DNA from: Hoeflea sp.
GTDB taxonomy: Bacteria; Pseudomonadota; Alphaproteobacteria; Rhizobiales; Rhizobiaceae
DNA length: 62,853 bases
Direction: 5' to 3'
Assembly: GCF_030682515.1 (NCBI RefSeq)
Contig: NZ_JAUXOD010000026.1
Span: 1-62,853 of the forward strand
Shown here piece after piece: positions 47,608 through 62,671 of the stretch. The translations under genes and the position numbers were made by a program. The number at the start of each line of letters is the position of its first letter. Position 1 is the first letter of the stretch. The notes beneath the pieces were generated by a model that was not told the origin of the DNA, searched no databases, and was given only the letters and a program-made list of their open reading frames with translations.

Positions 47608-48495
47608 TCAGTTCTCCCTTCCGAACAGGCCAGCGGGACGCAGGATCAGCACGAGCACCATGACCACGAAGATCACGATAGCCGACGCAGAAGGGTAGAA
47701 AACCTTGGTCAGTCCTTCGATGACGCCGAGGCTCAAGCCCGTCAGGATGGCGCCGCCGATGGAGCCGAGCCCGCCGATCACGACGACGGCGAACACGATG
47801 ACGATCAGGCTGGAGCCCATGGCGGGACTGACCTGATAGATCGGCGCCGCCAAGACGCCCGCGAACCCTGCCAGTCCGACACAGAAGCCGTAGGTCAATG
47901 TCAGCATCAGCGGCACATTGATGCCGAAGGCGGTGACCAGCGAAGGATTCTCCGTCGCCGCACGCAGCCAGGCGCCGAGCCGGGTCTTCTCCATCACCAG
48001 CCAGACCAGAAGACAGACAAGAACCGAGGCGAGGATCACCCAGGCCCGGTAGACCGGCAGAACCATGAAGCCGAGCCGGAACACGCCGGTCAGAGTCTCC
48101 GGAACCGGATAGGGCTTGCCGGCCGCCCCGAACAGGTAGCGGAACAGCCCTTCCATCGCCAAGGCCAGCCCAAAGGTGAAGAGAAGGCTGTAGAGATGAT
48201 CGATCCGGTAAAGGCGGCGCAGGAACAGGCGCTCCACGACAGCTCCAAACACGCCGACCACGATCGGCACCACCACCAGGGCGGCCCAGTAGTTGAGGCC
48301 GAGCTGCGTCAGGCAGAGCCAGGTTACGAATGCACCCAGCATATAGAACGCGCCGTGAGCAAAGTTGATCACGTTGAGCATGCCGAAAATGATCGCAAGA
48401 CCCAGGCTGAGCATGGCATAGAACGAACCGTTGATCAGACCGAGCAGAACCTGGCCCAGCAGAACCGCGGCCGGTACGCCGAAAATATCTGGCAT
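47608..48495 (-). CDS. livH: Branched-chain amino acid-type ABC permease LivH
   Basis: Permease of 295 residues, standard length. LLGLINGSFYAMLSLGLAII, FGMLNVINFAHGAFYMLGAF and IVIVFAVVVIGGLGSIGGAI are typical LivH segments. The ATG at 48495 follows GGAGGAG. The gene starts 14 bases after the livF stop. Confidence 0.95.
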   Translation of the reverse strand: MPDIFGVPAAVLLGQVLLGLINGSFYAMLSLGLAIIFGMLNVINFAHGAFYMLGAFVTWLCLTQLGLNYWAALVVVPIVVGVFGAVVERLFLRRLYRIDHLYSLLFTFGLALAMEGLFRYLFGAAGKPYPVPETLTGVFRLGFMVLPVYRAWVILASVLVCLLVWLVMEKTRLGAWLRAATENPSLVTAFGINVPLMLTLTYGFCVGLAGFAGVLAAPIYQVSPAMGSSLIVIVFAVVVIGGLGSIGGAILTGLSLGVIEGLTKVFYPSASAIVIFVVMVLVLILRPAGLFGREN

Positions 48496-48509
48496 TATGA
48501 CTCCTCCAC

Positions 48510-49220
48510 TCAAACGCCAAGATAGGCGTTGATCTTCGCCATGTTGGATTGAAGTGCCTCGTTGCTGAATTCATCAACCACCCGCCCCTGCTCCATGACG
48601 TAGTGCCTGTCGGCATTGGCCATGGCGAAACGGATGTTCTGCTCCACCAGAATGATCGTCAGGCCCAGGGCCTTGAGCTCCCCGAGCGCCCGGGAAATGT
48701 CCTCGACAATGACCGGCGCAAGACCCTCGGTCGGTTCATCAAGCAGGATGAAGTCGGCGCCGGTGCGAAGGATCCGCGCAATGGCCAGCATCTGCTGTTC
48801 GCCACCCGACAGCCGTGTCCCGATTGTCGTATCGCGCCCCTGAAGGTTCGGAAACAGCGTGTAGATCTGCTCAAGCGCCATCCCACTCGGTCGGAAGGCA
48901 GGCGGAAGAAGCAAGTTTTCCAGAACGTTGAGTGACGAGAAAATCCCGCGCTCCTCCGGCACAAATCCAAGGCCCAGCCGGGCGACATGATGGGCAGGCA
49001 TGGCCAGAAGGTCCTGTCCGTCCAGCACGGCCCTGCCCTTTCGCTGCTGGACAATCCCCATCAGCGTGCGCATCATGGTTGTCTTGCCGGCGCCATTGCG
49101 ACCGAGCAGCGTGACGATTTCACCCTGGTTCACGTGCAGCGACGCGCCGTGCAGGATGTGGCTTTCGCCGTACCAGCTGTGCAGGTCCTCAACCTCAAGA
49201 CGACGAACAGGATGATGCAT
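48510..49220 (-). CDS. livF: Branched-chain amino acid-type ABC ATPase LivF
   Basis: ATPase of 236 residues. Walker A LLGRNGAGKTTMMRTL, signature RLSGGEQQMLAIARIL, Walker B FILLDEPTEGLAP and the switch segment IILVEQNIRFAMA are seen. The ATG at 49220 begins MHHPVRRLEVEDLHSWYG and overlaps the livG gene by 26 bases; a longer in-frame version further upstream was rejected. Pairs with LivG to drive LivHM. Confidence 0.93.
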   Translation of the reverse strand: MHHPVRRLEVEDLHSWYGESHILHGASLHVNQGEIVTLLGRNGAGKTTMMRTLMGIVQQRKGRAVLDGQDLLAMPAHHVARLGLGFVPEERGIFSSLNVLENLLLPPAFRPSGMALEQIYTLFPNLQGRDTTIGTRLSGGEQQMLAIARILRTGADFILLDEPTEGLAPVIVEDISRALGELKALGLTIILVEQNIRFAMANADRHYVMEQGRVVDEFSNEALQSNMAKINAYLGV

Positions 49221-49968
49221 GGCCGCCCCCCATATAGGCTTGCTGGACTTCACGGTTGGATGAAACCTCGGCGTAATTTCCTTCGGCAATGATCTCGCCG
49301 CGGCGAAGCACGGTGATGCAGTCGGAGATGTCGGCGACGACGGAGAGATTATGCTCGACCATGACGATGGTGCGATTCTTGCCGACGCGGCTGATCAGCC
49401 GTGAGGTGCGTTCGATGTCCTCCTGGCCCATGCCTGCCATCGGTTCGTCGAGCAGGATGATTTCCGGGTTCATCGCCAGCGTGGTGGCGAGCTCCAGTGC
49501 CCGCTTGCGGCCATAGGAGAGCTCAACGGCCACCCGGTCCGCATAGGGTTCGAGTCCGACATCGGCAAGCAGCTCCATCACGGCGTCATTGTGCTGGTCG
49601 AGAACCTTGTCCGACCGCCAGAAAGCAAAGGTCTGACGGTGTTTCGACTGCAGCGCGATGCGGATGTTTTCGCGCGCAGTCAGATGGGGAAACACCGACG
49701 AAATCTGGAATGACCGCACGAGCCCCTTGCGGGCGATCTTGGCCGGGGGAACTTTGCTGATCTCTTCCCCTTTCAAGTAGATGGTTCCGCTGCTGGGCGA
49801 CAGGCTCCGGGTCAGCAGATTGAACAGCGTGCTCTTGCCGGCCCCGTTGGGTCCGATCAGCGCATGCAACGATCCGGCGCGGACCTTGAAGTCGACATTG
49901 CTCACGGCAACAAATCCACGAAACTCGCGCGTCAGGCCTCGTGTCTCCAGTATTGGCGGCGGCTCCAT
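49195..49968 (-). CDS. livG: Branched-chain amino acid-type ABC ATPase LivG
   Basis: ATPase of 257 residues. Walker [19 protein letters not shown], signature ELSYGRKRALELATTLAMNP (LSYG, a common LivG variant), Walker B IILLDEPMAGMG. The ATG at 49968 has CAGGGAGGG just ahead. It is the first gene of livGFHM and is divergent from livK. The C-terminus is unusually serine/cysteine-rich (HASSCSSS). Confidence 0.93.
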   Translation of the reverse strand: MEPPPILETRGLTREFRGFVAVSNVDFKVRAGSLHALIGPNGAGKSTLFNLLTRSLSPSSGTIYLKGEEISKVPPAKIARKGLVRSFQISSVFPHLTARENIRIALQSKHRQTFAFWRSDKVLDQHNDAVMELLADVGLEPYADRVAVELSYGRKRALELATTLAMNPEIILLDEPMAGMGQEDIERTSRLISRVGKNRTIVMVEHNLSVVADISDCITVLRRGEIIAEGNYAEVSSNREVQQAYMGGGHASSCSSS

Positions 49969-50070
49969 TTTCCCTCCCTGTGGCTGCGGACAGAGCGTCT
50001 CCTCGATCCCGACCCTCAGCCAAAACACTGCCCGCTTCTCAAATGGGCTTGACTCAACATTGCAGATAAA

Positions 50071-50233: not shown

Positions 50234-51445
50234 ATGAAAATAGGCAAGGCATTCCGCGTCGGCATGGCCGCGTTTTTCGGGTCGGTGGTCGCGTCCAGCG
50301 CGCTGGCGGCGGACGACCAGGCAAAGATCGGTGTCCTCACGGACATGAGCGGTCAATTCAGCCATGAATCGGGCAAGGGCGCCGTGACTGCCGTTCAGAT
50401 GGCTGTCGAGGATTTTGGGGGCACGGTGCTTGGCAAGCCGATTGAGGTCATCGTGGCTGATCATCAGAACAAGCCGGAAATAGCGGCTGCCACCGCGCAG
50501 GAGTGGTATGAAAGCAAGGGCGTGACCCTGATTTCCAACCTTATCAATTCGGGCATCGCGCTGTCCGTGGCGCAGATTGCCGCGGAGAAAAACGGCATCG
50601 CCATCGTCACCGGTTCCGGCTCGTCTCGGATTACCGGCGCTGGCTGCACGCCGAACTCGATCCATTATGCCTACGACACCTACGCGCTGGCCAACGGCAC
50701 CGCAAACCAGCTTGTCGGTCAGGGCCTGAAGAAGTGGTACTTCCTGACCGCCGATTACGCTTTCGGGCATGCGCTTGAAGCCGACGCGTCAGCGATTGTC
50801 GCCAAGGCCGGCGGCGAAATCGTCGGCAAAGTGCTCTATCCCATCGAGACTTCGGATCATTCGGCCTTCATGCTGCAGGCGCAATCTTCGCCTGCCGATG
50901 TCGTCGCAATCGCCGGATCGGGAACCACATTCATCAATGCGGTCAAATCGGCCCGCGAATTCGGCCTTGCCGATTCAGGCAAGCTGACCGCCGGCCTGCT
51001 GGTCTGGCTCACCGACGTGAAGGCGCTCGGCCTTGAAACCGCCCAGGGCATGATCCTGACCAATGGGTTCTACTGGGACCGTGACGATGACACCCGCGCC
51101 TTTGCCAGCCGATTCATGGAGCGCATGGGCGTGATGCCGCACATGGGCGACGCGGGTGATTACTCCTCTACCATGCATTACCTCAAGGCCGTCGAGGCGG
51201 CAGGGACCACCGACGCGCAGACGGTCATGGCGAAAATGCGCGAAATGCCGATCAACGACTTCTTCGCCCAAGATGGCAAGATTCGCGAAGACGGCCGCAT
51301 GGTGCACGACATGTATGTCTACCAGGTCAAGACGCCGGCCGAATCCACCGGCGAATGGGACCTCTACAAGCTCATCAACACGATCCCCGGCGACGAGGCC
51401 TTCCGGCCGCTCGCCGAGAGCGAATGCCCGCTCGTCAAGAACTGA
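50234..51445 (+). CDS. ABC transporter substrate-binding protein (LivK-like)
   Basis: Periplasmic binding protein of 403 residues. The signal peptide (MKIGKAFRVGMAAFFGSVVA, cleavage after ALA at about residue 27) is followed by ADDQAKIGVLTDMSGQFSHE and the two-lobe LivK fold. The ribosome site GGGAGGAAG is strong. It belongs with livGFHM on the other strand but leads the catabolic operon, so import specificity and catabolism are co-expressed. This subgroup is common next to aromatic and heterocyclic acid degradation genes; the ligand is unknown. Confidence 0.92.
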   Translation: MKIGKAFRVGMAAFFGSVVASSALAADDQAKIGVLTDMSGQFSHESGKGAVTAVQMAVEDFGGTVLGKPIEVIVADHQNKPEIAAATAQEWYESKGVTLISNLINSGIALSVAQIAAEKNGIAIVTGSGSSRITGAGCTPNSIHYAYDTYALANGTANQLVGQGLKKWYFLTADYAFGHALEADASAIVAKAGGEIVGKVLYPIETSDHSAFMLQAQSSPADVVAIAGSGTTFINAVKSAREFGLADSGKLTAGLLVWLTDVKALGLETAQGMILTNGFYWDRDDDTRAFASRFMERMGVMPHMGDAGDYSSTMHYLKAVEAAGTTDAQTVMAKMREMPINDFFAQDGKIREDGRMVHDMYVYQVKTPAESTGEWDLYKLINTIPGDEAFRPLAESECPLVKN

Positions 51446-51457
51446 AGACTGCACTTC

Positions 51458-51489
51458 GCGGTCGGGATGGACCTCATCCGCCCGGCCGC
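51458..51489 (+). terminator. Stem-loop between livK and coxG
   Basis: GCGGTCGGG (51458-51466) can pair with CCCGGCCGC (51481-51489) with one T-G pair; the loop contains a further GGATG/CATCC possibility. It starts 13 bases after the livK stop and ends 29 bases before coxG. No T-run. Probably an attenuating or 3'-protecting hairpin, as found after the other binding-protein genes in this window. Confidence 0.5.
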
Positions 51490-51518
51490 GCCCTTCCCTC
51501 GTCCTGAATGGCGCCATC

Positions 51519-51980
51519 ATGAACCTGCATGACTCTGTCACCATCCCTTGCGATCGCGCCACTGTATGGGCAGCGTTGAACGACCAGGAAATCCTGCGCC
51601 AGTGCATACCCGGCTGCGAGGAACTCGCCCAGACCACGCCCGTGCACATGACCGCGAAAGTCACGCTCAAGATAGGCCCGGTGAAAGCCACTTTCGCGGG
51701 CGAAGTTGAGCTCAGCGAGATGAACCCGCCCGAGAGCTATGTCATTTCCGGAGAGGGCAAGGGCGGAATCGCCGGGTTTGCCAAGGGATCGGCGCGCGTG
51801 CGCCTGGAGGCTGTCGGGCCTTCACAGACCATTCTCCACTATGATGCCAGCGCCGATGTCGGCGGCAAGATTGCCCAACTCGGAGCCCGCCTTCTCGATT
51901 CCACCGCCAAGAAGCTTGCACGCAAGTTCTTCGATGACTTCCAGGCCGCGGTCGTGAGCGCGGAAGCAGGCCGCCGATGA
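51519..51980 (+). CDS. coxG: CoxG family protein (SRPBCC fold, carbon monoxide dehydrogenase subunit G-like)
   Basis: A 153-residue START/SRPBCC-type protein: VTIPCDRATVWAALNDQEIL, then RQCIPGCEELAQ, KIGPVKATFAGEVELSEM and SADVGGKIAQLGARLLDSTA. CoxG-like proteins accompany molybdenum hydroxylases of the CoxMSL type and are thought to help place or mature the enzyme at the membrane. It lacks a long hydrophobic C-terminal anchor. The ATG at 51519 is chosen because the homology starts there; the frame runs open much further upstream. The stop overlaps the next start (ATGA). Confidence 0.9.
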   Translation: MNLHDSVTIPCDRATVWAALNDQEILRQCIPGCEELAQTTPVHMTAKVTLKIGPVKATFAGEVELSEMNPPESYVISGEGKGGIAGFAKGSARVRLEAVGPSQTILHYDASADVGGKIAQLGARLLDSTAKKLARKFFDDFQAAVVSAEAGRR

Positions 51981-52744
51981 CCGACATCCTGACAAGCATT
52001 CAAGACGGTGTCGCCACCGTCACCATCAATCGTCCGGAGCGCCGCAATTCGGTCACCCTCGCCATGTGGAGGAGTTTCGGCGACATCTTTGCCGGGCTCT
52101 CCGCGGATCGCGCGGTTCGCGCCATCATCCTGACCGGCGCCGGAGCCGACTTTTCCGCCGGCGCAGACATCCCCGAATTCGAGACGGTGCGCGGCGACGC
52201 GGACAAATCCCGCGCTTACGAAGTTGCGGTCGATTACGGCTGCGCCGGCATCGCCAATGCGTCAAAGCCGGTCATCACCGTCAATCGCGGTTACACGCTC
52301 GGGGGCGCCGCCCATCTGTCCATGTCCGCGGATTTCCGCTTTGCCCATACCGGTTCGGTTTTCGGCATCCCTGCCGCCCGCCTGTCGATCGTCTATGGCG
52401 TCCAGGCAACGCGCAAGCTGCTGGCTCTGGTCGGCGTCGCCAACGCCAAGCGCATTCTCTATTCCGCCGAACGTTTCGACAGCCGCAAGGCTCTGGAAAT
52501 CGGATTTGTCGACGCCGTCAGCGAGGACCCGATGGCCGATGCGCTGGCCTTCGCCAGGTCGCTTTCGGAAAACGCCCCTTTGTCGATCGCTGGCGCCAAG
52601 TACATGCTCAACGGGCTGACCCTCAGTACGTTCGATGCCGCCGAGGCGCAGCGCCTGATCGACGAGGCATCTGCAAGCCACGATTATTCCGAGGGCCGCG
52701 ACGCTTTTGCGGCAAAGCGCCCACCAAAATTCGAAGGCCGTTGA
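51977..52744 (+). CDS. Crotonase-fold protein lacking both canonical catalytic glutamates
   Basis: Enoyl-CoA hydratase/isomerase superfamily member of 255 residues. The oxyanion region is intact (FSAGADIPEF, residues 59-68; GYTLGG, 105-110). In the usual GGGxEL motif it has GGAAHL (109-114), placing H113 where hydratases have the first catalytic Glu. In the usual LPExKLG motif it has IPAARLS (131-137), placing A133 where the second Glu belongs. A simple hydratase function is therefore unlikely. It may be a thioester or ring-opening hydrolase, a decarboxylase or an isomerase, all of which occur on this fold. The gene is coupled on both sides (ATGA with coxG; start of coxM two bases after its stop). 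Confidence 0.85.
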   Translation: MTDILTSIQDGVATVTINRPERRNSVTLAMWRSFGDIFAGLSADRAVRAIILTGAGADFSAGADIPEFETVRGDADKSRAYEVAVDYGCAGIANASKPVITVNRGYTLGGAAHLSMSADFRFAHTGSVFGIPAARLSIVYGVQATRKLLALVGVANAKRILYSAERFDSRKALEIGFVDAVSEDPMADALAFARSLSENAPLSIAGAKYMLNGLTLSTFDAAEAQRLIDEASASHDYSEGRDAFAAKRPPKFEGR

Positions 52745-52745
52745 G

Positions 52746-53606
52746 ATGAAGCCATCATCCTTCGAGTATTGCCTGCCAAAGACGATCGAGGAAGCTTTCG
52801 CGGCGCTCGATCACGACGACGCCAAGATCATTGCCGGCGGACAGAGCCTGGTTCCGATGATGAATTTCCGGCTGGTTCAGCCCGGGCGGCTGGTCGACAT
52901 CAACTCGCTCCCCGGCTTGGGCGAGATCGTGCTGGATGGCGGGACAATGCGCATCGGTTCGCTGGTCCGTCATGCCGAAGCCGCGCGCCACGACCTGGTG
53001 AGGAACCACCTGCCGGTCATCGCCGAAGCCATGGCTCATGTTGCCCATGTCGCCATCCGCAACCGGGGCACGATCGGCGGCAGCCTTGTCCATGCCGATC
53101 CCTCGGCCGAGTGGCCGCTGCTCGTCACGCTGCTCGATGGCCAGATCGAGATTGCCGGACCTGAGGGCCTGCGCCACGCCGCGCCGCAGGAGTTCTTTGT
53201 CGCGCCCCTGGTCACCACCATCGAGGACGACGAGATCCTGGTTGCAGTCCGCCTGCCGATCCTGTCCCCCGGCACCGGGATGGCTTTCACCGAAATAGCT
53301 CAAAGGGCCGGAGATTTCGCGGTGGTTGCCGCAGCCGCCACGGTGCTGATGGACCGCGGCGTCATCTCCGACGTTCGCCTGGCCCTCGGCGGCGCGGGCG
53401 ACGTGCCTGTCCGGCTCTTTGAGGTCGAGGCGGCTCTGGCCGGCCTGCGACCGGACGCCATCGACGCCATCACGCGCGGCTGCGCGGACGGGCTCGAGCC
53501 CAACGAGGACATGCACGCGACAGCCGAGTACCGGAGATCCCTGATCCCTGTCCTGGCCAGACGCGCGCTCGAGGCAGCGGTTCAGCGTGCGGGAGCAATG
53601 CGATGA
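52746..53606 (+). CDS. coxM: Molybdenum hydroxylase FAD-binding subunit (CoxM type)
   Basis: Medium subunit of 286 residues of a xanthine-dehydrogenase-family enzyme. The two FAD motifs are AGGQSLVPMMNFRL (about residues 32-45) and TIGGSLVHADPSAEWPLL (about 110-127). A C-terminal CO-dehydrogenase flavoprotein domain follows. It passes electrons from the iron-sulfur subunit to the final acceptor. Starts right after the crotonase and overlaps coxS (ATGA). Confidence 0.93.
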   Translation: MKPSSFEYCLPKTIEEAFAALDHDDAKIIAGGQSLVPMMNFRLVQPGRLVDINSLPGLGEIVLDGGTMRIGSLVRHAEAARHDLVRNHLPVIAEAMAHVAHVAIRNRGTIGGSLVHADPSAEWPLLVTLLDGQIEIAGPEGLRHAAPQEFFVAPLVTTIEDDEILVAVRLPILSPGTGMAFTEIAQRAGDFAVVAAAATVLMDRGVISDVRLALGGAGDVPVRLFEVEAALAGLRPDAIDAITRGCADGLEPNEDMHATAEYRRSLIPVLARRALEAAVQRAGAMR

Positions 53607-54088
53607 ATGCAAAGATCGACATTGCCCTGACGCTGAACGGCGAAGCGGTCACCGGGCGCGCCGAACCGCGGATGCTTGCCTCCGACTTCATCCGTGACGT
53701 GTTGCTGATGACCGGCACCCATGTCGGCTGCGAGCAAGGTGTATGCGGGGCGTGCACGATCCGGTTTAACGGCGTGGTGGCCCGATCCTGCCTGCTGTTC
53801 GCAGCCCAGCTCGACGGCGCCGTGGTCGAGACGGTTGAAAGCCTTGGCGCGCCGCATGACCTCAATGACATCCAGAAAGCTTTCCGGAAGCATCATGCCC
53901 TGCAGTGCGGCTTCTGCACGCCCGGCTTCCTCATGACCGTTTCGGAGATCCTTCAGACACTGCCGCTCTCCACCGATCATGAGATTCGCGACGCCCTGTC
54001 GGGCAATCTTTGCCGCTGCACCGGCTATGAGCACATCGTGCGCGCCGTTCGCGACCTGGTGAATCAAAGAGATGGAGTTCAGGCATGA
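53603..54088 (+). CDS. coxS: Molybdenum hydroxylase 2Fe-2S subunit (CoxS type)
   Basis: Small subunit of 161 residues with all eight cluster ligands. The plant-type ferredoxin cluster uses C43, C48, C51 and C63 (GCEQGVCGACTIRFNG); the second cluster uses C102, C105, C137 and C139 (QCGFCTPGF and LCRCTGYEH). The gene overlaps both coxM and the following metallo-hydrolase by four bases. Confidence 0.95.
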   Translation: MNAKIDIALTLNGEAVTGRAEPRMLASDFIRDVLLMTGTHVGCEQGVCGACTIRFNGVVARSCLLFAAQLDGAVVETVESLGAPHDLNDIQKAFRKHHALQCGFCTPGFLMTVSEILQTLPLSTDHEIRDALSGNLCRCTGYEHIVRAVRDLVNQRDGVQA

Positions 54089-54846
54089 AGATGCATATCC
54101 TCGACGGCGGCAGGCTGAGAATGCGGCGGCGCATCTATGTCCCGGACGCCGACAAGGCCGAGATGATCGAGTTGCCCGTGATTGCGGTCCTGTTCCGGCA
54201 TGAGAAGGGCAACATCCTCTATGACACCGGATGCCATCCATCGGTCTCGACCGCGGCCGAGACGCGCTGGGGCAAACTGGCAAGTGTCATGACGCCGATC
54301 GGCGACCATACGTCGAATGTGATAGACTCCTTGCGGGATCTGGGTCTGTCCCCCGACGACATCGACATCGTGGTCAATTCGCATTTTCATCCCGACCACT
54401 GCGGCTGCAACGAATTCTTCCGCAGCGCCCGCTTCATCTGCCACGAAGAGGAACTCAAGGTCGCCCGGGCGAGCGGCGCCGAGGCATTGGGGTATCTCGC
54501 CAGCGAATGGGACCACCCCATGGCGCTTGAGGCCGTCACCGACGGCCACGACGTGCTCGGCGATGACAAGCTCGTGGTGGTGGCCTTGCCCGGGCATACG
54601 CCGGGTCTCATCGGCCTGCATGCACGACTTGAGCGCACCGGCGCTGTTTTGCTGGTGTCTGACGCCGTCAGCCTGCGGCGCAACCTCGACCATGACGAAG
54701 TCCCGAAAAATGCGTGGAACTCCGAAGCGCTGCTGGCCAGCTACGTCCGGATCAGGACTTACGAGACGGAAGGCGCAATGATCGTCTGCGGCCACGACGA
54801 CGAACAGTGGCAAGCGCTGCGCAAGGGGGCGGACGCCTATGAATGA
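54085..54846 (+). CDS. Metallo-beta-lactamase-fold hydrolase (AHL-lactonase-like)
   Basis: Dinuclear-metal hydrolase of 253 residues of the N-acyl homoserine lactonase-like branch. The metal motif SHFHPDHCG gives H100, H102, D104 and H105; further ligands lie in LPGHTPGLIGL and LVSDAVSL, and ICGHDDEQW is the last histidine. No signal peptide. It is wedged between coxS and coxL, overlapping the first by 4 bases and the second by 8, so it is translated as part of the hydroxylase unit. A lactonase acting on the hydroxylation product is the simplest idea; quorum quenching is an alternative but is poorly supported by the context. Confidence 0.88.
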   Translation: MKMHILDGGRLRMRRRIYVPDADKAEMIELPVIAVLFRHEKGNILYDTGCHPSVSTAAETRWGKLASVMTPIGDHTSNVIDSLRDLGLSPDDIDIVVNSHFHPDHCGCNEFFRSARFICHEEELKVARASGAEALGYLASEWDHPMALEAVTDGHDVLGDDKLVVVALPGHTPGLIGLHARLERTGAVLLVSDAVSLRRNLDHDEVPKNAWNSEALLASYVRIRTYETEGAMIVCGHDDEQWQALRKGADAYE

Positions 54847-57250
54847 CGCCGCCATCCCCAAGGACACACGAAGCGCACCGGCACCCGAGACCTCACGCCC
54901 GAAATACATCGGCGAGCGGGTCCAGCGTCTTGAGGATCCGCGCCTGCTCACCGGCACCGGTCGATACACGGCCGATATCCGCTTCGAAAGAATGGCGCAC
55001 CTGGCCTTTGTCCGCTCCGATCAGGCCCATGCGCGGATACTGGGGATCGAAACAGACGATGCCGCGACCTTTCCCGGCGTGATCGCGGTGCTGACGGCGC
55101 AGGATTTCTCCGAGATCCCCGATCTCGTGGCGCCTTCGCGCATGAAGAACTATCATCCTACTCACTGCCCGGTTCTGGCACGCGACACCGTGCGCTATGT
55201 CGGTGAGCCGGTCGCGGTCGTGGTGGCGTCCGACCGATATCTCGCCGAAGACGCGGCCAATGCCATTGTTGTCGATTACGAGCCGCTCGGGGCCAGTTCC
55301 GACCCTGCAGCCGCACTGCTCGGCGACGCTGTGTTTTTGCATGACGAGGTGCCCGGCAACCTCGTTCTTGAACGGAGTTTCGCGACCGGCGACGCCGGCT
55401 CGGCCATCGCGGGCGCGGCCCATGTGGTCGAAGGCAGGTTCCGCCTGCGCCGGAAGTCGCCGATGGCGATGGAGCCCCGCGCCTATGTGGCTGACTATGA
55501 CCGCGGCCGTGACGCGCTGACGCTTTACGGAGCGACACAGATTCCCGGCGTGGTCCGGGACGAACTGGCGAAGCTTCTCAACATCGCCGGCAACCGCATT
55601 CGCGTGATCGCGCCCGATGTCGGCGGCGGATTTGGCGGCAAGGGGTCCTTGTATCCCGAAGAAATCATTGTTGCCGCCCTCGCGCGGCGCCTGGCCAGAC
55701 CCGTCAAATATGTCAGCGACCGGCTGGAGGATCTGACCTCCACCAGCCAGGGCTTCGATGAATATGTCGAAGCCAGGCTCGCTTTCGACGATGACGGCAT
55801 GTTCATTGCGCTCGACGCGGAGGTGATCGGCGACATCGGCGCCTATTCCATCTACCCTTGGACGGCGGCGCTGGAGCCGGTGCAGGTCGCAAGCTTCCTG
55901 CCCGGCCCCTACAAGACGCCGCATTACCGGGGACGGGTGCGCGGGGTCTGCACACCCAAGCCGCCGACCGGACCTTACCGCGGCGTGGGTCGGCCCATGG
56001 CGGTGTTCGCGCTCGAGCGCCTTGTCGACATGGCGGCGGAGACGCTCGACATGGACCGGGCCGAGATCCGCCGTCGCAATCTGGTGCAGCCCGACGAATT
56101 TCCCCATCGGATCGGGTCCGGCATCATCTGGAACCACTCCGGCTTCACCGAGTGTCTGGACGCCGCGGTCAAGGCGGTGGACTATTCCGGATTCAAAGAA
56201 CGTCAATTGCTGGCGCTTGAGCAAGGCCGCTGGATCGGCCTGGGCATCGGCTCCTATGCGGAACTGACCGGGATCGGCTCCCGCATTGCTGTCGCGCCGG
56301 GCATGCCGATCAACACCGGCAACGAAACCGCCACGGTCCGCATCGACGCCACCGGCGCGGTAATCGCCACCTTCGCCACGGCTTCGCACGGACAGAGCCT
56401 GGAAACGACCCTGGCGCAGATCGTTGCGGAAGAACTCGGCGTGCGGCCGCAGGACGTGCAGATCGTTCAGGGCGACACCGGCATGACCGCGCATGGGACC
56501 GGCACCTATGCCAGTCGCAGCGCGGTCATCGGCGGCGGCGCCGCGATCCTCACCACCCGCGCCCTGTTGAAGAAGGTCAAACGGGTGGCCGGCCGGCTGT
56601 TCGACGTCGACCCTGACCGCGTGGAAACCGGGGATGGCGAGATCTACGTGCCAGGCACCAACCATCGCATCGGATTCGACGAGCTGGCGCGTGCGGTCTA
56701 TTCCGATATGGCGACCCTGCCGCTGGCCGCCCGGGAGACCCTCGAATCTCAGGAAAATTATGATCCTGTTCTGGGAACAACCACCTCTTCGACGCACATC
56801 GCGGAAGTTGAGATCGATCCGGAAACATTGTCGATCCGTCTCACCCGCTTCGTCGTTGCGGAAGACTGCGGCAGGATGATCAACCCGCAGGTGGTGGATG
56901 GCCAGGTCCATGGCGGCGTCGTCCAGGGCATCGGCGTGGCGTTGCTGGAGGAGCTGGAATTCGACGCAACCGGGCAGTTGCTCTCGGCCAGCCTTGCCGA
57001 TTACCTGATCCCCACCTCAGCGGAATCGCCCCATATCGAGGTCATTCATCTCGAAACCGTGCTCCCGGACAATCCGGGCGGTTTTCGCGGCATGGGCGAA
57101 GGCGGCACCATCGGTGCGCCGGCGGCCATTGCCAATGCTGTCGCCGACGCACTGGCGCATCTTGGCATCGGGATATCGGAATTGCCGATCACACCCAGCA
57201 AGCTTCATAGGCTCATCGCCGCCAAAAATCTTACGAAGGATAGGGAATAA
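54839..57250 (+). CDS. coxL: Molybdenum hydroxylase large subunit (CoxL-like, xanthine dehydrogenase family)
   Basis: Molybdopterin-cytosine-dinucleotide-binding subunit of 803 residues. The N-terminal a/b hammerhead starts RPKYIGERVQRLEDPRLLTG. VGGGFGGKGSLYPEE is the cofactor-binding Q/K loop, and the catalytic glutamate is E754 in GMGEGGTIGAP. The active-site loop reads GPYRGVGRP (residues 378-386), like form II CoxL proteins (AYRGAGR), and not like the AYRCSFR loop with its copper-binding cysteine in true CO dehydrogenase. It should hydroxylate an aromatic, heterocyclic or aldehyde carbon with water as oxygen source. Confidence 0.93.
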   Translation: MNDAAIPKDTRSAPAPETSRPKYIGERVQRLEDPRLLTGTGRYTADIRFERMAHLAFVRSDQAHARILGIETDDAATFPGVIAVLTAQDFSEIPDLVAPSRMKNYHPTHCPVLARDTVRYVGEPVAVVVASDRYLAEDAANAIVVDYEPLGASSDPAAALLGDAVFLHDEVPGNLVLERSFATGDAGSAIAGAAHVVEGRFRLRRKSPMAMEPRAYVADYDRGRDALTLYGATQIPGVVRDELAKLLNIAGNRIRVIAPDVGGGFGGKGSLYPEEIIVAALARRLARPVKYVSDRLEDLTSTSQGFDEYVEARLAFDDDGMFIALDAEVIGDIGAYSIYPWTAALEPVQVASFLPGPYKTPHYRGRVRGVCTPKPPTGPYRGVGRPMAVFALERLVDMAAETLDMDRAEIRRRNLVQPDEFPHRIGSGIIWNHSGFTECLDAAVKAVDYSGFKERQLLALEQGRWIGLGIGSYAELTGIGSRIAVAPGMPINTGNETATVRIDATGAVIATFATASHGQSLETTLAQIVAEELGVRPQDVQIVQGDTGMTAHGTGTYASRSAVIGGGAAILTTRALLKKVKRVAGRLFDVDPDRVETGDGEIYVPGTNHRIGFDELARAVYSDMATLPLAARETLESQENYDPVLGTTTSSTHIAEVEIDPETLSIRLTRFVVAEDCGRMINPQVVDGQVHGGVVQGIGVALLEELEFDATGQLLSASLADYLIPTSAESPHIEVIHLETVLPDNPGGFRGMGEGGTIGAPAAIANAVADALAHLGIGISELPITPSKLHRLIAAKNLTKDRE

Positions 57251-57254
57251 CACC

Positions 57255-58010
57255 ATGGAATTCGGATTGAAGGACAAAGTCGCCCTCGTTACCGGCGGTG
57301 GACGCGACACCGGCGCCCACATCGCCAAGGCGCTGGCTGCCGAAGGCGCTGCCGTTGCCGTCAATTATCGCAGCTCAGCGGACGAGGCCGCCAAGCTGGT
57401 GGACGAGATCCTGGCAAGCGGCGGAAAGGCCAAAGCCTACAAGGCTGACATTGGCGACTACGAGCAGGTCAAGCGGATGGTCTCCGACCTGGTCGCGGAT
57501 TTTGGACGAATCGACATTCTCGTCAACAATGCCGGCTATGTGAAATACCAGCGTTTCGTCGAAAGCGGTCCCGCCGACTGGAAGGCGCAGATTGATACCT
57601 GTCTTTATGGCGCCCTGCACTGCTGCCACGCGGTCGCGCCTTACATGATCGAACAGAACGGCGGTCGCATCATCAGCCTCATCGGCGACAGCTCCCGCAT
57701 CGGGGAAGCCAATCTGGCATTGGCCGCCGCTGCACGGGCGGGCACCGTGGCTCTCGGCAAGTCGCTGGCGCGCGAACTGGGCCGCTCGAATGTCTGCGTC
57801 AACGCCGTCTCGCTCGGACTGGTGCAGACGGCCCACTCGGACGCGGATTTCCTCGCCAAGAACATGGAGAAGATCGTCAAGGCCTATCCGCTGCGCCGGA
57901 TCGGCACGCCTGACGACATCGCGCCTCTCGTGACATTCCTTGCATCCGAGCAAGCATCATGGATCACTGGCCAGGTGATCAGCGCCAACGGCGGCTTCAG
58001 CATGATCTGA
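57255..58010 (+). CDS. Atypical SDR-fold protein without the Ser-Tyr-Lys catalytic set
   Basis: A 251-residue short-chain dehydrogenase-fold protein. The cofactor site VALVTGGGRDTGAHIAKAL (residues 9-27) and NNAG (91-94) are normal. Aligning SLIGDSSRIGEANLALAAAARAGT (written in part) with classical SDRs puts G144, A157 and R161 where the catalytic Ser, Tyr and Lys belong. No tyrosine occurs nearby to replace it. The C-terminus (ITGQVISANGGFSMI) is standard. It could be a binding or scaffold protein, a lyase/isomerase, or use another mechanism. ATG 57255 begins the conserved domain 4 bases after coxL. Confidence 0.87.
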   Translation: MEFGLKDKVALVTGGGRDTGAHIAKALAAEGAAVAVNYRSSADEAAKLVDEILASGGKAKAYKADIGDYEQVKRMVSDLVADFGRIDILVNNAGYVKYQRFVESGPADWKAQIDTCLYGALHCCHAVAPYMIEQNGGRIISLIGDSSRIGEANLALAAAARAGTVALGKSLARELGRSNVCVNAVSLGLVQTAHSDADFLAKNMEKIVKAYPLRRIGTPDDIAPLVTFLASEQASWITGQVISANGGFSMI

Positions 58011-58034
58011 GCCAATGCTCAGGGAGGAGACAAT

Positions 58035-59576
58035 ATGATCCGGACCGATCTCATCGCACCGCTGGCCGAACTACTGCCACGCCAGGCCAGGGCTTTCGGC
58101 GCCAAGACGGCGTTTGAGGATGCCGCACGAAGCATCGACTACAGCCACTTGAACGACGAGGTCGCAGCTCTGGCCACACATTTCCGCGACCGCGGGATAG
58201 AGCCGGGCGGCACGGTCGGCATCTGGCTCCCGAACTCGGTCGACTGGGTGGTGGCGGCGCTCGCCGCCATCCGCGCGGGCGCGATCGCCGTGCCGATCGC
58301 CCATGACGCCAAGCACAATGAAATGGCCTACCGCGTTCGCGATGCAGCCATCAGCCTGATCGTCACAAGTGTCGGCAACAGCAAGGCGCTCGAGGCGCTC
58401 GGGGATGAGTGTCCAGATGCCATTATCTATGCCGACGGAGGCGACGAACCCGCCGCCTTCGCCACGCTGTGCGCCAGTCCGGCCAGGGGCGTCGAACTTG
58501 CGCAGGACGACATCGATGCGGTGTCAATGATCGTCTACACGTCGGGAACAACCGGACAGCCAAAAGGCGTCATGCTGACGACCAGATCGATGCTGTGGGT
58601 CAATGCCGCATGCTGGGCGCCGATATTCGGCCTGGGTCCGGACGACGTGGTGCTCTCGCCGCTACCGCTGTTCCATTCCTATGCCTTGAATTTCTGCGTG
58701 CTTTCGATCGTCGCCAACGGGGCAAGCGAATATGTCATGGAGCGCTTCTCGACCCAGGAGGCCTTGGCCCTTCTGGGCACCAACCGGTTCACCAAGATGC
58801 CGGGGGTGCCGACCATGTTCCACTACCTGATGCTGGCGGCCAAGGAGGCCGGGATTAACCCGTTTGAATCGGTCGATCGCTGCGTGTCAGCCGGCGCCAT
58901 CTTGCCCGCCGCGCTCAACAATCAGTTCGAGGACTATTTCGGCGTTGAACTGCTTGACGGCTACGGCATCACCGAAACATCGACCATGGTGACCATGAAC
59001 TGGCCTGGCCAAGGCCGCATCCCGGGCTCCTGCGGACTGCCCTTGCCCGGTCTTGCCGTCCGTATTGTCGATCCGGGCAGCGGCAAGGACGTGACCCAGG
59101 GCGGCGAAGGCGAACTGATCGTCCGAGGTCCCAATGTCATGAAGGGGTACCACGCCAAGCCCGATGCGACCGAAGCGGCGCTGCGGGACGGCTGGTACCA
59201 CACAGGCGATCTCGCACGCGCCAATCCCAGCGGTTTCCTCACCATTACCGGTCGGCTCAAGGAGTTGATCATCCGCGGCGGCCAGAATATCTCGCCTGCG
59301 GAAGTCGAGGAAACGGTTCAGAAAATGGAGGGCGTCATTGACTGCGCCATAGTGGGCGTCGCCCATGAGACCCTGGGCGAGGTGCCCGTGGCCTTCATCG
59401 TTGCGCGGGAAGCAATGCCTGAAATGCAGCAGGTCAAGGAGTTCTGCCTGCAAACCCTGTCCTCCTACAAGCTGCCGCATGATCTCGTCCGTATCGAGAC
59501 CATTCCGCGGACGGGATCGGGCAAGGTTCTGCGTTATCGTCTTCGCGAAATCTACGAACTCAATCAAAAGAACTAA
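58035..59576 (+). CDS. AMP-dependent acyl-CoA synthetase
   Basis: Adenylate-forming ligase of 513 residues. Key motifs: P-loop IVYTSGTTGQPKGVMLTTRS at about residues 170-189, LDGYGITETSTMVTMN, and the C-terminal lysine in IPRTGSGKVLRYRL. The ribosome site is GGGAGGAG. It would activate the carboxylic acid that the molybdenum hydroxylase then attacks as CoA thioester, as in furoyl-CoA or benzoyl-CoA-type routes. Substrate not readable from sequence. Confidence 0.92.
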   Translation: MIRTDLIAPLAELLPRQARAFGAKTAFEDAARSIDYSHLNDEVAALATHFRDRGIEPGGTVGIWLPNSVDWVVAALAAIRAGAIAVPIAHDAKHNEMAYRVRDAAISLIVTSVGNSKALEALGDECPDAIIYADGGDEPAAFATLCASPARGVELAQDDIDAVSMIVYTSGTTGQPKGVMLTTRSMLWVNAACWAPIFGLGPDDVVLSPLPLFHSYALNFCVLSIVANGASEYVMERFSTQEALALLGTNRFTKMPGVPTMFHYLMLAAKEAGINPFESVDRCVSAGAILPAALNNQFEDYFGVELLDGYGITETSTMVTMNWPGQGRIPGSCGLPLPGLAVRIVDPGSGKDVTQGGEGELIVRGPNVMKGYHAKPDATEAALRDGWYHTGDLARANPSGFLTITGRLKELIIRGGQNISPAEVEETVQKMEGVIDCAIVGVAHETLGEVPVAFIVAREAMPEMQQVKEFCLQTLSSYKLPHDLVRIETIPRTGSGKVLRYRLREIYELNQKN

Positions 59577-59588
59577 CGGGCGAGGCTG

Positions 59589-60749
59589 ATGCATCCCTTC
59601 ATTTTCAACACGACCAAATCCATTGTCCTCCGGCCCGGCGCCGCGACCGAACTCGCCGCGAGCGCGGCGGACCTCATCGGCACGCGCTGCCTGTTCATCA
59701 CCGATCCGGGCCTTCGCAGGCTCGGCCTCAGCGATGCGCCAATCGCTTCGCTGAAGACCGCGGGGATCGAGGTCACTGTCTTTGACACCGTGGAAGCAGA
59801 CCCTGGCCTGGCAACCCTTCTGGCTGCCGTGGGAGCGGGGCGTGAGGCTGATGTCACCGGCGTTGTCGGCTTCGGCGGCGGATCCTCTCTCGATGTGGCC
59901 AAGCTCGCCGCCCTGTTGCTGGGCTCCGGCGAGGACCTCGACCAGGCCTGGGGGGTCGGCAACGCCAAGGGGCCACGGCTGCCGCTCGTGCTGATTCCCA
60001 CGACGGCCGGCACCGGCTCGGAAGTCACACCGGTATCGATCATCACGGTCGGGGACGAGGAAAAGCGGGGCGTCTCCTCGCCTGTCATTCTCCCCGATAT
60101 CGCCATTCTCGATCCGAGCCTGACGCTCGGTCTGCCCGCCGACATCACCGCGGCCACCGGCGTCGACGCCATGGTGCACGCCATCGAGGCCTATGCTTCG
60201 AAAAACGCCAACAACAATCCGCTGTCGAGACTGCTGGCGCGCGAGGCGCTTCGTCTGATCGGCGCCAACATCGAGACCGCGGTGTTTGACGGCCGCAACG
60301 TCGAGGCGCGCGGCGCAATGCTGCTCGGCTCCATGCTCGCCGGACAGGCCTTCGCCAATTCGCCGGTAGCTGCCGTTCACGCGTTGGCCTATCCGATCGG
60401 CGGCACCTTCCACGTGCCACATGGTCTTTCAAACGCGCTGGTGCTGCCCCATGTGCTGCGCTTCAACGCGCCAAACGCCGGCGCGGTCTATGCGCAGATT
60501 GCGCACGACGCCTTCCCCCATCTTCCAAGGGACGCCGGGAGCCAGGCCATCTGCTCGGCCTTCATCGATGAACTCGCCGGCCTTGCCGTCAAGCTAGGCA
60601 TGAAGACACGGCTGCGCGATGTCGGCATTCCCGAAACCGCGCTCGCCAAGATGGCCTCCGACGCGATGGTGCAACAGCGTCTGCTGGTCAACAATCCACG
60701 CGAAGTCACCCAGACTGATGCGCTGGCAATTTACAGGGCGGCCTGGTGA
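59589..60749 (+). CDS. Iron-containing alcohol dehydrogenase
   Basis: Group III (Fe-dependent) alcohol dehydrogenase of 386 residues. The metal ligands are D193, H197 (GVDAMVHAIEAYAS), H264 and H278 (VHALAYPIGGTFHVPHG), and the cofactor region GGGSSLDVAKLAAL is present. Members oxidise alcohols such as 4-hydroxybutyrate, 1,3-propanediol or lactaldehyde-related compounds, or reduce maleylacetate. It lies 12 bases after the ligase, and the following thioesterase starts on its stop codon (TGATG). Confidence 0.92.
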   Translation: MHPFIFNTTKSIVLRPGAATELAASAADLIGTRCLFITDPGLRRLGLSDAPIASLKTAGIEVTVFDTVEADPGLATLLAAVGAGREADVTGVVGFGGGSSLDVAKLAALLLGSGEDLDQAWGVGNAKGPRLPLVLIPTTAGTGSEVTPVSIITVGDEEKRGVSSPVILPDIAILDPSLTLGLPADITAATGVDAMVHAIEAYASKNANNNPLSRLLAREALRLIGANIETAVFDGRNVEARGAMLLGSMLAGQAFANSPVAAVHALAYPIGGTFHVPHGLSNALVLPHVLRFNAPNAGAVYAQIAHDAFPHLPRDAGSQAICSAFIDELAGLAVKLGMKTRLRDVGIPETALAKMASDAMVQQRLLVNNPREVTQTDALAIYRAAW

Positions 60750-61189
60750 TGGCCGAGCGACAGAGCCCGTCGACGCGCCGTGATTATGCCGATTTCTATG
60801 TCATCCAGACCCGGTGGATGGACAATGATGTCTATGGCCACATGAACAATGTGGTGCATTACTCGCTGTTCGACACGGCCGTGAACGGCTGGCTGATCGA
60901 AAAAGGCCTGCTCGATCCGCGCAGAAGCGAAACCTTCGGCCTGGTGGTCGAAACCGGCTGCCGCTATTTCGCGGAGATGGCGTTCCCCGACCTGGTCACG
61001 GCCGGGATCAGAGTCACCAAGATCGGAACAAGCTCCATCCGCTACGAGGTTGGCCTCTTTGCCAATGAGGCCGAGAGCGCCGCCGCCGAGGGCTTTTTTG
61101 TCCATGTCTATGTCGACGCCACGACCCGGCGCCCGGTGCCGATCGACGCCATCCGCAGCGCCGCACTGCGGACGCTCCAAATCCGCTGA
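60749..61189 (+). CDS. Acyl-CoA thioesterase (4HBT hot-dog fold)
   Basis: Thioesterase of 146 residues. The active-site motif TRWMDNDVYGHMNNVVHYSL holds the D-x-D-x2-GHxNN pattern at residues 25-34, with the catalytic aspartate as in 4-hydroxybenzoyl-CoA thioesterase. It shares one base with the stop of the alcohol dehydrogenase gene. It would free CoA from an end product or from dead-end thioesters of the pathway. Confidence 0.9.
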   Translation: MAERQSPSTRRDYADFYVIQTRWMDNDVYGHMNNVVHYSLFDTAVNGWLIEKGLLDPRRSETFGLVVETGCRYFAEMAFPDLVTAGIRVTKIGTSSIRYEVGLFANEAESAAAEGFFVHVYVDATTRRPVPIDAIRSAALRTLQIR

Positions 61190-61204
61190 CCCGAAGGATT
61201 GCCC

Positions 61205-62671
61205 ATGTCTCTTACAAATCTCAGGAATCCCGCACTGTTTCGCCAGGTCTGTTTTGTCGGCGGCGAATGGAAAGCGGCTGCGAGCGGCAGGACGATTCCG
61301 GTTTCCAATCCCGCCACGGGCCAGCGCATCGCCAACGTGCCGGCATTCTCTGCAGCAGAAGTCGGTGATGCCGTGACAATCGCGCATCGGGCTCAGAACG
61401 ACTGGTCCGCGCGGACCGGCAAGGAGCGGGCCGCGATATTGAGGCGCTGGTTCGAACTCATCCGCGACAATCGTGAGGATCTCGGCGCCATTCTCACCTC
61501 CGAGCAGGGCAAGCCTCTTTCCGAGGCGATCGGCGAAATCGACTACGCCGCCAGCTTCATCGAATGGTTCGGCGAGGAGGCCAAGCGCGTCTACGGGGAC
61601 ACCATCCCCGGCCATCAGCGTGACAAGCGCATTGTCATACTCAAGCAGCCGATCGGGGTGTGCGCGGCCATCACCCCCTGGAACTTCCCAGCGGCCATGA
61701 TCACCCGCAAGGCCGGTCCAGCATTGGCAAGCGGTTGCACCATGATCATCAAGCCGGCCAGCCAGACGCCGCTGACGGCGCTGGCGCTGTGCGTATTGGC
61801 TGAAGCTGCCGGTGTGCCCGCGGGGGTCCTGTCCTGCGTCACCGGCTCGTCTTCGGAAATCGGTCCGGAGCTCACCTCCAACCCGATGATCCGCAAGGTG
61901 TCCTTCACCGGCTCCACCGACGTCGGAAAGGAACTCGTCCGCCAATGCGCGGGGACGATGAAACGCACATCCATGGAGTTGGGCGGCAATGCGCCATTCA
62001 TCGTTTTTAACGACGCGGATCTCGACGCAGCAGTCGAGGGAGCGATCGCGTCAAAATATCGCAATGCCGGCCAGACCTGCGTCTGCGCCAACCGACTGTT
62101 CGCGCAGGATAAAATCCATGACGCCTTCGTCGAAAAACTGTCCGCGCGGGTCCGGCAGTTGCACGTTTCCGATGGGTTCAGTGACGGCGCCCAGATCGGG
62201 CCGCTGATCGATCAGGCTGCGGTAGAAAAGGTCAATGCCTTGCTCGAAGATGCCGTCATGAAAGGCGCTCGGATTACTATCGGTGGCAAGTCGCACGCGC
62301 TTGGCGGGTCCTTTTATGAACCCACCATCGTCGTTGGCGTGACGCCCGCCATGGATATCTTTCGCGAGGAAATATTTGGCCCGGTAGCCCCGATCATCCG
62401 CTTCACCAGCGAGACCGAGGTTCTGGAGATGGCTAACGATACGCCTTTTGGCCTCGCCGCCTATTTCTTCGGTCGCGATATGAACCGTATCTGGCGGACA
62501 GCGGAAGCGCTCGACTTCGGCATTGTCGGCGCCAACACCGGAATGATATCAACCGAAGTCGCACCCTTTGGTGGCATGAAACAGAGCGGGCATGGCCGGG
62601 AAGGATCGTATCACGGCATCGAGGACTATCTGGAAACCAAGTATTTTTCCCTGAGCGTGGAATACTGTTAA
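61205..62671 (+). CDS. Aldehyde dehydrogenase, succinate-semialdehyde dehydrogenase (GabD)-like
   Basis: NAD(P)-dependent aldehyde dehydrogenase of 488 residues. Catalytic E258 (SMELGGNAPFIVF) and C292 (NAGQTCVCANR) are present. The segments EQGKPLSEAIGEI, YAASFIEWFGEEAKRVYGDT, PGHQRDKRI and EVAPFGGMKQSGHGREGSYH are hallmarks of GabD-type enzymes. It is the last gene of the operon, 15 bases after the thioesterase. With the iron alcohol dehydrogenase it could carry an alcohol to an acid in two steps, for instance 4-hydroxybutyrate to succinate; related aldehydes are possible. Confidence 0.92.
   Translation: MSLTNLRNPALFRQVCFVGGEWKAAASGRTIPVSNPATGQRIANVPAFSAAEVGDAVTIAHRAQNDWSARTGKERAAILRRWFELIRDNREDLGAILTSEQGKPLSEAIGEIDYAASFIEWFGEEAKRVYGDTIPGHQRDKRIVILKQPIGVCAAITPWNFPAAMITRKAGPALASGCTMIIKPASQTPLTALALCVLAEAAGVPAGVLSCVTGSSSEIGPELTSNPMIRKVSFTGSTDVGKELVRQCAGTMKRTSMELGGNAPFIVFNDADLDAAVEGAIASKYRNAGQTCVCANRLFAQDKIHDAFVEKLSARVRQLHVSDGFSDGAQIGPLIDQAAVEKVNALLEDAVMKGARITIGGKSHALGGSFYEPTIVVGVTPAMDIFREEIFGPVAPIIRFTSETEVLEMANDTPFGLAAYFFGRDMNRIWRTAEALDFGIVGANTGMISTEVAPFGGMKQSGHGREGSYHGIEDYLETKYFSLSVEYC

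Follow-up and report, generated by a model that had tools for sequence, protein, structure and literature searches.

A contig of Hoeflea sp., 62,853 nt long and analysed here over its full length (the window), carries a conserved 17-gene system that may import and degrade furan-3-carboxylate (3-furoate or a close analogue), in a regulated manner, by way of 4-hydroxybutyryl-coenzyme A (CoA). We put the probability of this reading, with the steps proposed below, at about 0.48. The system comprises a twelve-gene operon on the plus strand (50234–62671), the divergent importer genes LivMHFG (46626–50028, minus strand) and a gene for a regulator with tandem HxlR domains (45556–46533). An earlier note on this DNA had described the twelve genes as one tightly packed unit resembling furoate degradation, and we confirmed its gene order and packing: five stop/start overlaps of 1–8 bases join CoxG to the crotonase, CoxM to CoxS, CoxS to a metallo-beta-lactamase-fold (MBL) protein, MBL to CoxL, and an iron-type alcohol dehydrogenase (Fe-ADH) to a thioesterase. 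The parts belong to known families, assigned with Pfam and NCBIfam models, and their logic resembles that of the Hmf (2-furoate) pathway combined with the Blc system.

In the proposed pathway the ring acid would enter through LivKHMGF (step 1) and be converted to 3-furoyl-CoA by the ligase (step 2). The CoxLMS molybdenum hydroxylase would hydroxylate ring C2, giving 2-oxo-2,5-dihydrofuran-3-carbonyl-CoA as the tautomer (step 3), and a protein of the short-chain dehydrogenase/reductase (SDR) fold would place a hydride onto the activated C=C bond to form 2-oxotetrahydrofuran-3-carbonyl-CoA (step 4). The MBL protein would then open this alpha-acyl-gamma-butyrolactone to 2-(2-hydroxyethyl)malonyl-CoA (step 5), which the crotonase would decarboxylate to 4-hydroxybutyryl-CoA (step 6). 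The thioesterase, Fe-ADH and succinate-semialdehyde dehydrogenase (SSADH) would finally yield succinate, or, in some relatives, 4-hydroxybutyryl-CoA dehydratase would yield crotonyl-CoA (step 7). We infer steps 3–6 from homology and chemistry with moderate confidence.

4-Hydroxybutyryl-CoA bears its thioester on C1 and its hydroxyl on C4. With the thioester on furan C3 and C2 hydroxylated, C2 would leave as CO2 and C5 would become the CH2–O carbon; because this atom mapping gives exactly 4-hydroxybutyryl-CoA, we favour a 3-carboxylated furan as the substrate, and judge from sequence that the chance of a furan-3-carboxylate-type compound is about even. Such a route uses every gene of the operon. 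The furan, pyrrole and thiophene 2-carboxylates that were the first guess of the earlier note would, by this reasoning, not reach 4-hydroxybutyryl-CoA without moving the CoA. That the system represents a new furan-3-carboxylate pathway combining ene-reduction by an SDR without the usual tetrad, ring opening of the acyl-homoserine lactone (AHL) lactonase type and crotonase decarboxylation to 4-hydroxybutyryl-CoA is a tentative proposal.

Predicted intermediate and active sites

4-Hydroxybutyryl-CoA is very probably an intermediate, as judged from the tail genes of the operon and its relatives. The SSADH scores 695 bits with TIGR01780, above the cut-off of 646, and shares 64% identity with BlcA. 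The Fe-ADH, which shares 54% with BlcB, stays below the cut-offs of the NCBIfam models (229 of 500 for the 4-hydroxybutyrate dehydrogenase model). The blc operon was read from plasmid pAtC58 of Agrobacterium fabrum C58 (L192), whose record names blcR and attM; the two dehydrogenases encoded there correspond to BlcA and BlcB. The end steps of the blc pathway convert 4-hydroxybutyrate to succinate, and both dehydrogenases of the window show the homology expected of BlcAB-type 4-hydroxybutyrate oxidation. From this homology the tail would run from 4-hydroxybutyryl-CoA through 4-hydroxybutyrate and succinate semialdehyde to succinate. The upper pathway from alcohol through aldehyde to acid, to which the earlier note had assigned the Fe-ADH and the aldehyde dehydrogenase, falls away, and the latter enzyme is to be read as an SSADH.

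We mapped the system in 123 loci (12 plasmid or genome loci, 80 named loci and 31 further genome stretches; handles such as L039 denote these), and retained 105 distinct loci once identical CoxL stretches had been removed. Gene presence was called by identity thresholds that we set ourselves and, as many loci end inside the cluster, presence counts are lower bounds. A 4-hydroxybutyryl-CoA dehydratase gene lies in the cluster in 7 of the 105 loci, among which L039 and L161 are closely related; neither an alcohol dehydrogenase nor an SSADH is in view in six of these seven. On a Bradyrhizobium elkanii plasmid the three tail genes are absent from a 30-kb stretch with the dehydratase in the cluster. 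Against 6vjr the L039 enzyme reaches 797 bits, and against 1u8v, the Clostridium 4-hydroxybutyryl-CoA dehydratase, 574 bits; the Cys-Cys-His-Cys set, which we take to be the Fe-S ligands, is kept in all six dehydratases compared. Nine of the 105 loci, including Xanthobacter and Novosphingobium, hold a zinc-type alcohol dehydrogenase in the cluster; zinc-type and iron-type enzymes occurred together in none of the core-complete loci counted. The tail homology and the replacement of the dehydrogenases by a dehydratase in relatives together point to 4-hydroxybutyryl-CoA as the product.

The large subunit of the molybdenum hydroxylase has the MoCoBD domains of the xanthine oxidase family, is accompanied by FAD and 2Fe-2S subunits, and keeps Glu754, which we take to be the catalytic glutamate, in all 13 sequences compared. 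Its best match is quinoline 2-oxidoreductase (573 bits), ahead of CO dehydrogenases (392–455), 6-hydroxypseudooxynicotine dehydrogenase (448) and 4-hydroxybenzoyl-CoA reductase (309). The ring hydroxylase of the earlier note survives this comparison, for aldehyde oxidoreductases score at most 174 bits and xanthine dehydrogenases at most 164. FastTree and IQ-TREE trees do not recover the CoxL of the system as a strict clade: within it lie nine Rhizobiales paralogues on long branches, with a support of 0.83 among 93 system sequences and of 79 with 35 of those 93, a placement that we tentatively read as long-branch attraction.

Family alignments of 77 SDRs and 53 crotonases were drawn from 92 loci with identity and coverage filters of our own, near-duplicates included. 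None of the four residues of the N-S-Y-K tetrad is kept in the 77 SDRs (Asn becomes Cys, Gly, Ser or Asp; Ser becomes Gly; Tyr becomes Ala, Val, Thr or Gly; Lys becomes Arg), whereas all four are present in the three reference SDRs (BadH, FabG and one further SDR). The family has new invariants instead (G144, D145, S146, R148, G150, E151, R161 and K169) and retains the cofactor-type motifs TG...G and NNAG. Membership of the SDR fold follows from a Pfam score of 190 bits and from the AlphaFold model, which has the FabG fold with template modelling scores of 0.91–0.94 against the eight best FabG hits. The mean predicted local distance difference test value is 89 overall and 74 at residues 141–150, where some of the new invariants sit; residues 191–220 and the C-terminus are also weaker. 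In a plasmid collection 19 of 116 records match the SDR at 60–80% identity; among the 40 plasmid matches listed, identity drops from 62% to 43%, and three lower matches that were checked have an ordinary tetrad. Loss of the tetrad fits ene-reduction because no carbonyl-activating Tyr/Lys is needed, and yet the role of ene-reductase of the hydroxylated ring, exactly as proposed, is rather doubtful. A search of titles and abstract starts in the open literature yielded nothing of use on tetrad-less SDRs. This SDR type remains with CoxL even where no MBL gene was detected, the run CoxM-CoxS-CoxL-SDR occurring in this form in L065, L066, L076, L092, L106, L110, L120 and L124.

Enoyl-CoA hydratases use two catalytic glutamates. 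All 53 crotonases lack both, the first position being His (49) or Asn (4) and the second Ala (51) or Ser (2). Each of the 53 has a Tyr that aligns with Tyr140 of YgfG, an enzyme in which Tyr140 and His66 have active-site roles. The crotonase is predicted to be a malonyl-type decarboxylase, and a YgfG-like decarboxylase fits step 6 because lactone hydrolysis would yield a malonyl thioester. In Paucimonas lemoignei (L115:6329-7801) CoxG and the decarboxylase-like crotonase share one open reading frame of 490 residues. The MBL protein matches the AhlS/AttM (AHL-lactonase) models best, at 127 bits, short of the cut-offs (475 and 390), and its HxHxDH motif, H171, D193 and H237 are invariant in nine sequences. 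We predict an alpha-acyl-gamma-lactonase, which fits step 5 because the ring resembles that of an acyl-homoserine lactone.

Conservation and promoter motif

The 17 genes form a conserved unit in many Alphaproteobacteria and a few Betaproteobacteria. Two Aminobacter plasmids carry all 17 in an order identical to that of the window, so that the same gene order, which the earlier note had proposed to look for, does exist elsewhere; plasmids of Agrobacterium tumefaciens and Rhizobium etli hold all 17 rearranged into blocks. Recurrence of the same genes on these plasmids argues that the operon grouping is not chance. Sinorhizobium chiapasense has 16 of the 17 in the fetched stretch, which stops near the thioesterase gene. 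A scan of species genomes gave 244 relatives, the best 80 of which were returned as loci; among these are Roseovarius, Xanthobacter, Afipia, Bosea, Novosphingobium, a Paracoccus bin, Neorhizobium and Bradyrhizobium, the Betaproteobacteria Paucimonas and a Ramlibacter bin, and Hoeflea alexandrii, the closest named large-subunit relative found (98%). The trait is patchy, with a large subunit at an E-value of 1e-200 or better in one of 17 other genomes of the same genus searched.

Over the 105 loci the counts of presence are 100 each for CoxM and CoxS, 94 for the SDR, 85 for MBL, 68 for the regulator, 66 for the crotonase and 61 for the ligase. Where MBL occurs, CoxL follows it immediately in 72 of 85 loci, and where the SDR occurs it comes immediately after CoxL in 66 of 94. 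Genes of the hmf type occur in the retrieved flank of eight of the 105 loci (L045, L062, L065, L076, L085, L116, L129 and L188), where they adjoin the system or form one line with it and are 44–78% identical to Cupriavidus proxies; in L065 and L076 an hmfABCDE-ordered run leads directly into CoxM-CoxS-CoxL-SDR. These neighbours are the main pointer to a furan-type substrate, and they support the furan-like compound of the earlier note.

The window's divergent promoter contains the only two exact matches of a 14-base pattern, GTCTANTNNTGCAA, in the 4.67-Mb genome. The motif was first spotted by eye in the window, and its mask was relaxed after relatives had been viewed. Of 46 divergent LivG-LivK regions including the window's, which are partly related and include near-duplicates, 38 have an exact match and 45 a match within one mismatch, a level reached by 0.4% of shuffles. 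Across the 123 mapped loci 108 matches lie in 63, and 107 of the 108 fall outside mapped genes (mapped genes, not all genes), with 39 at LivG-LivK, 23 at CoxG-CoxM, 10 at FeADH-LivM and 8 between LivK and the thioesterase; in Afipia (L083) a copy stands about 120 bases before the 4-hydroxybutyryl-CoA dehydratase match. Of the 68 loci that have the regulator, 48 also have the motif, against 5 of the 37 in which the regulator is not in view. The two sites of the window are operator-like, and the tandem-HxlR protein is probably, from its sequence, a ligand-responsive transcription factor.

Several loci differ in their surroundings. A second ligase and a thiolase follow the cluster at L056:13599-17696, L121:13015-18389 and L098:18983-21989, with a gene of the 3-hydroxyacyl-CoA dehydrogenase type in L056 and L121; these extra ligase and thiolase genes possibly belong to beta-oxidation that feeds in the ring acid or uses crotonyl-CoA. 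Another Liv-type importer replaces LivK in L045, L046, L047, L048, L054, L055, L116 and L129, its binding protein in L046 being about 20% identical to LivK, which suggests a different or broader ligand. An HpaB-type monooxygenase gene recurs near the system (L062:1823-3322, L047, L104, L119, L166 and L173; weaker in L116 and L129). We considered this neighbour as a dehydratase and rejected it, as the L062 copy matches 4-hydroxyphenylacetate monooxygenases best (4-hydroxyphenylacetate 3-monooxygenase, 263 bits).

Alternative readings

A number of observations weigh against the furan-3-carboxylate pathway as drawn. MBL was undetected in 20 of the 105 loci and 7 of 47 core-complete loci have no tail gene, absences that are soft because the stretches often end early. 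Dehydratase and dehydrogenase tail occur together in L176, and L171 has the dehydratase with the thioesterase. The ligase carries no substrate signal, the best NCBIfam models listed all scoring below their cut-offs, and a substrate deduced from it was given up for that reason. His66 of YgfG is not conserved in the crotonase. The middle residue of the SDR glycine motif is Asp in 72 of 77 members; we dropped the idea that this bars NAD(P), since pteridine reductases deviate there too. The SDR might nonetheless reduce an aldehyde, act without redox chemistry or be inactive. A reversed control pattern has three matches in the genome, so the count of two is ordinary in itself, and only place and conservation speak for the motif. 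Identity to the HmfC proxy reaches 56% for the small Fe-S subunit. A LivK-like binding protein (46%) near the Cupriavidus hmf-type cluster was discarded as support because it sits among other catabolic genes.

The same genes and the same product would also accommodate a different order, in which MBL opens 2-hydroxy-3-furoyl-CoA first to 2-(2-oxoethyl)malonyl-CoA, the crotonase yields 4-oxobutyryl-CoA and the SDR, which keeps TG...G and NNAG, reduces the aldehyde to 4-hydroxybutyryl-CoA. We consider this order unlikely: the Ser-Tyr-Lys that classical SDRs need for aldehyde reduction is missing in all 77, and an aldehyde reduced only to be re-oxidised by a 4-hydroxybutyrate dehydrogenase tail would be wasteful. 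Somewhat unlikely, too, is another five-membered 3-carboxylate (pyrrole-3-, thiophene-3- or dihydrofuran-3-carboxylate), for which the atom mapping is identical. With a dihydrofuran no reduction would be required and the SDR would be a non-redox enzyme, a role that fits its lost tetrad. The lactonase-like MBL and the nearby hmf-type genes nevertheless indicate furans, and dihydrofuran-3-carboxylates are not known as common natural substrates.

Judged by its sequences, the operon of the window is not an Hmf pathway, and an Hmf-like route for 2-furoate, pyrrole-2- or thiophene-2-carboxylate ending in 2-oxoglutarate is quite improbable. Ligase, CoxLMS enzyme, crotonase and lactonase occurring together, with the resemblance of the Fe-S subunit, would suit it, as would the CoxMSL, CoxG and zinc-type alcohol dehydrogenase seen in Xanthobacter tagetidis (L112), presumably a user of thiophene-2-carboxylate. 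Our Hmf proxies come from the hmf-ordered cluster of Cupriavidus necator pENH92 rather than from HMF14 itself; against them the large subunit is 35%, the FAD subunit 38%, the ligase 30% and the crotonase 30% identical. In the phylogeny that the earlier note had called for, the HmfA proxies fall outside the node of support 100 that contains the window's CoxL. The HmfE proxy retains both hydratase glutamates while the window crotonase has neither, so that we rejected its identity with HmfE; the best match to this proxy in the window's own genome is 34% identical. The hmf gene order (A-B-C-D-E, large subunit first and crotonase last) is not that of the window, and the tail and its replacement by a dehydratase need 4-hydroxybutyryl-CoA, which is not directly reachable from 2-carboxylates. 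The gene content argues for this product over 2-oxoglutarate. What stands of the resemblance to Hmf drawn in the earlier note is the scheme of CoA activation, ring hydroxylation by a CoxLMS enzyme other than CO dehydrogenase, lactone opening and CoA release; an HmfE-like crotonase active site does not. Oxidation of CO or aldehydes, among neighbours that have nothing to do with it, is barely credible as the function. This reading has in its favour the automatic label aerobic carbon-monoxide dehydrogenase (NF040766), yet the score of 613 bits is under the cut-off of 950, as is that with TIGR02416 (500 versus 991). The loop PTGPYRGVGRP lacks the active-site cysteine found in AYACSFR of CO dehydrogenase 8uem, for which reasons we set aside a CO dehydrogenase identity, and the ligase, crotonase and lactonase are conserved partners.

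Bacterial growth on furan-3-carboxylate has reportedly been described only physiologically, for Paracoccus denitrificans MK33 in 1991. Among the papers listed in searches of the open literature we found none on bacterial genes for 3-furoate degradation, and by title or abstract start none describing this gene set, subscription journals being mostly outside that search. If the furan-3-carboxylate reading is true, the pathway gains genes, an importer and an operator; a gene becomes available for the kind of lactone opening to which none is assigned in 2-furoate degradation; the SDR and crotonase superfamilies gain members that lack the tetrad and act as decarboxylases, respectively; and a heteroaromatic ring is channelled to 4-hydroxybutyryl-CoA by genes found on rhizobial plasmids, among others. 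Beta-substituted furans are common in plant terpenoids and carriers of the cluster include nodule and root bacteria, so the cluster may be a plant-compound niche trait.

Features of the window and comparison with known systems

Table 1. Features of the 17-gene system in the window, with the basis of each assignment
Feature	Position	Strand	Basis
Window, 62,853 nt	whole contig		one complete contig of a 4.67-Mb genome
Regulator with two HxlR domains, 325 aa	45556..46533	+	Pfam HxlR, 2 stretches, 117.5 bits
LivM-like permease	46626..47606	-	family match; conserved with cluster
LivH-like permease, TTG start	47608..48513	-	family match
LivF-like ATPase	48510..49289	-	listed from TTG; true start probably nearer 49220
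LivG-like ATPase	49195..50028	-	listed from GTG; true start probably further inside
Operator-like site 1, GTCTATTAGTGCAA	50071..50084	+	exact match to GTCTANTNNTGCAA
Operator-like site 2, GTCTACTAATGCAA	50179..50192	+	exact match to GTCTANTNNTGCAA
LivK-type periplasmic binding protein	50234..51445	+	Peripla_BP_6, 345 bits
CoxG, accessory protein of CoxLMS enzymes	51519..51980	+	PF06240, 111 bits
Crotonase-fold protein, predicted malonyl-type decarboxylase	51977..52744	+	Pfam ECH; active-site residues
CoxM, FAD subunit of molybdenum hydroxylase	52746..53606	+	FAD_binding_5
CoxS, 2Fe-2S subunit	53603..54088	+	Fer2_2
AHL-lactonase-like MBL-fold hydrolase, predicted alpha-acyl-gamma-lactonase	54085..54846	+	MBL fold; AhlS/AttM models
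CoxL-type large subunit of molybdenum hydroxylase	54839..57250	+	MoCoBD_1/2; QorL best
SDR-fold protein without N-S-Y-K tetrad, predicted ene-reductase of hydroxylated ring	57255..58010	+	Pfam SDR, 190 bits
AMP-forming acyl-CoA ligase, predicted ring-acid activation	58035..59576	+	PF00501, 303 bits
Fe-ADH, predicted 4-hydroxybutyrate dehydrogenase	59589..60749	+	54% to BlcB
4HBT-fold thioesterase, predicted 4-hydroxybutyryl-CoA hydrolase	60749..61189	+	PF13279
SSADH	61205..62671	+	TIGR01780; 64% to BlcA

Elsewhere in the window (14674–26778, minus strand) lies a second catabolic-looking operon, with genes for two GMC oxidoreductases, an SDR, a sugar-type ABC importer, an aldehyde dehydrogenase, a crotonase and a CoA transferase.

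In PMC6678421, hmf clusters are described with the order hmfABCDE and a major facilitator superfamily (MFS) transporter, and the 2-furoate pathway of Cupriavidus basilensis with a lactone hydrolysis that has no assigned gene. The Cupriavidus necator plasmid has hmfABCDE-ordered genes and an MFS transporter likewise. The system of the window resembles hmfABCDE in the conversion of an acid to its CoA ester, CoxLMS-type ring hydroxylation, a lactone tautomer and a crotonase-fold protein. It differs in gene order and in the low identity to the A, B, D and E proxies given above; the HmfA proxy is a protein of 1012 residues that matches CoxG, at 36%, in its C-terminal part, and the window adds a lactonase-like gene, the tetrad-less SDR, a decarboxylase-like crotonase and the 4-hydroxybutyrate tail. 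With the blc (attKLM) gamma-butyrolactone operon it shares the two dehydrogenases and, at 28% identity to AttM, a distantly related MBL lactonase, whereas blc has no molybdenum hydroxylase, ligase or crotonase, and BlcR is an IclR-type regulator in place of HxlR.

Single enzymes show the same mixture of likeness and difference. The crotonase shares its fold and the aligned Tyr140 with the methylmalonyl-CoA decarboxylase YgfG/ScpB of E. coli (L193), and has His in place of Glu113 and Ala in place of His66. The SDR has the fold of BadH/FabG-type enzymes, with about 40% identity to FabG and 41% to a BadH in the aligned parts, while replacing all four tetrad residues and acquiring invariants of its own. 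QorL of quinoline 2-oxidoreductase (1t3q) is the closest solved relative of the large subunit, at 42% identity; its substrate is free quinoline and not a CoA ester, unlike the chemistry proposed for the window.

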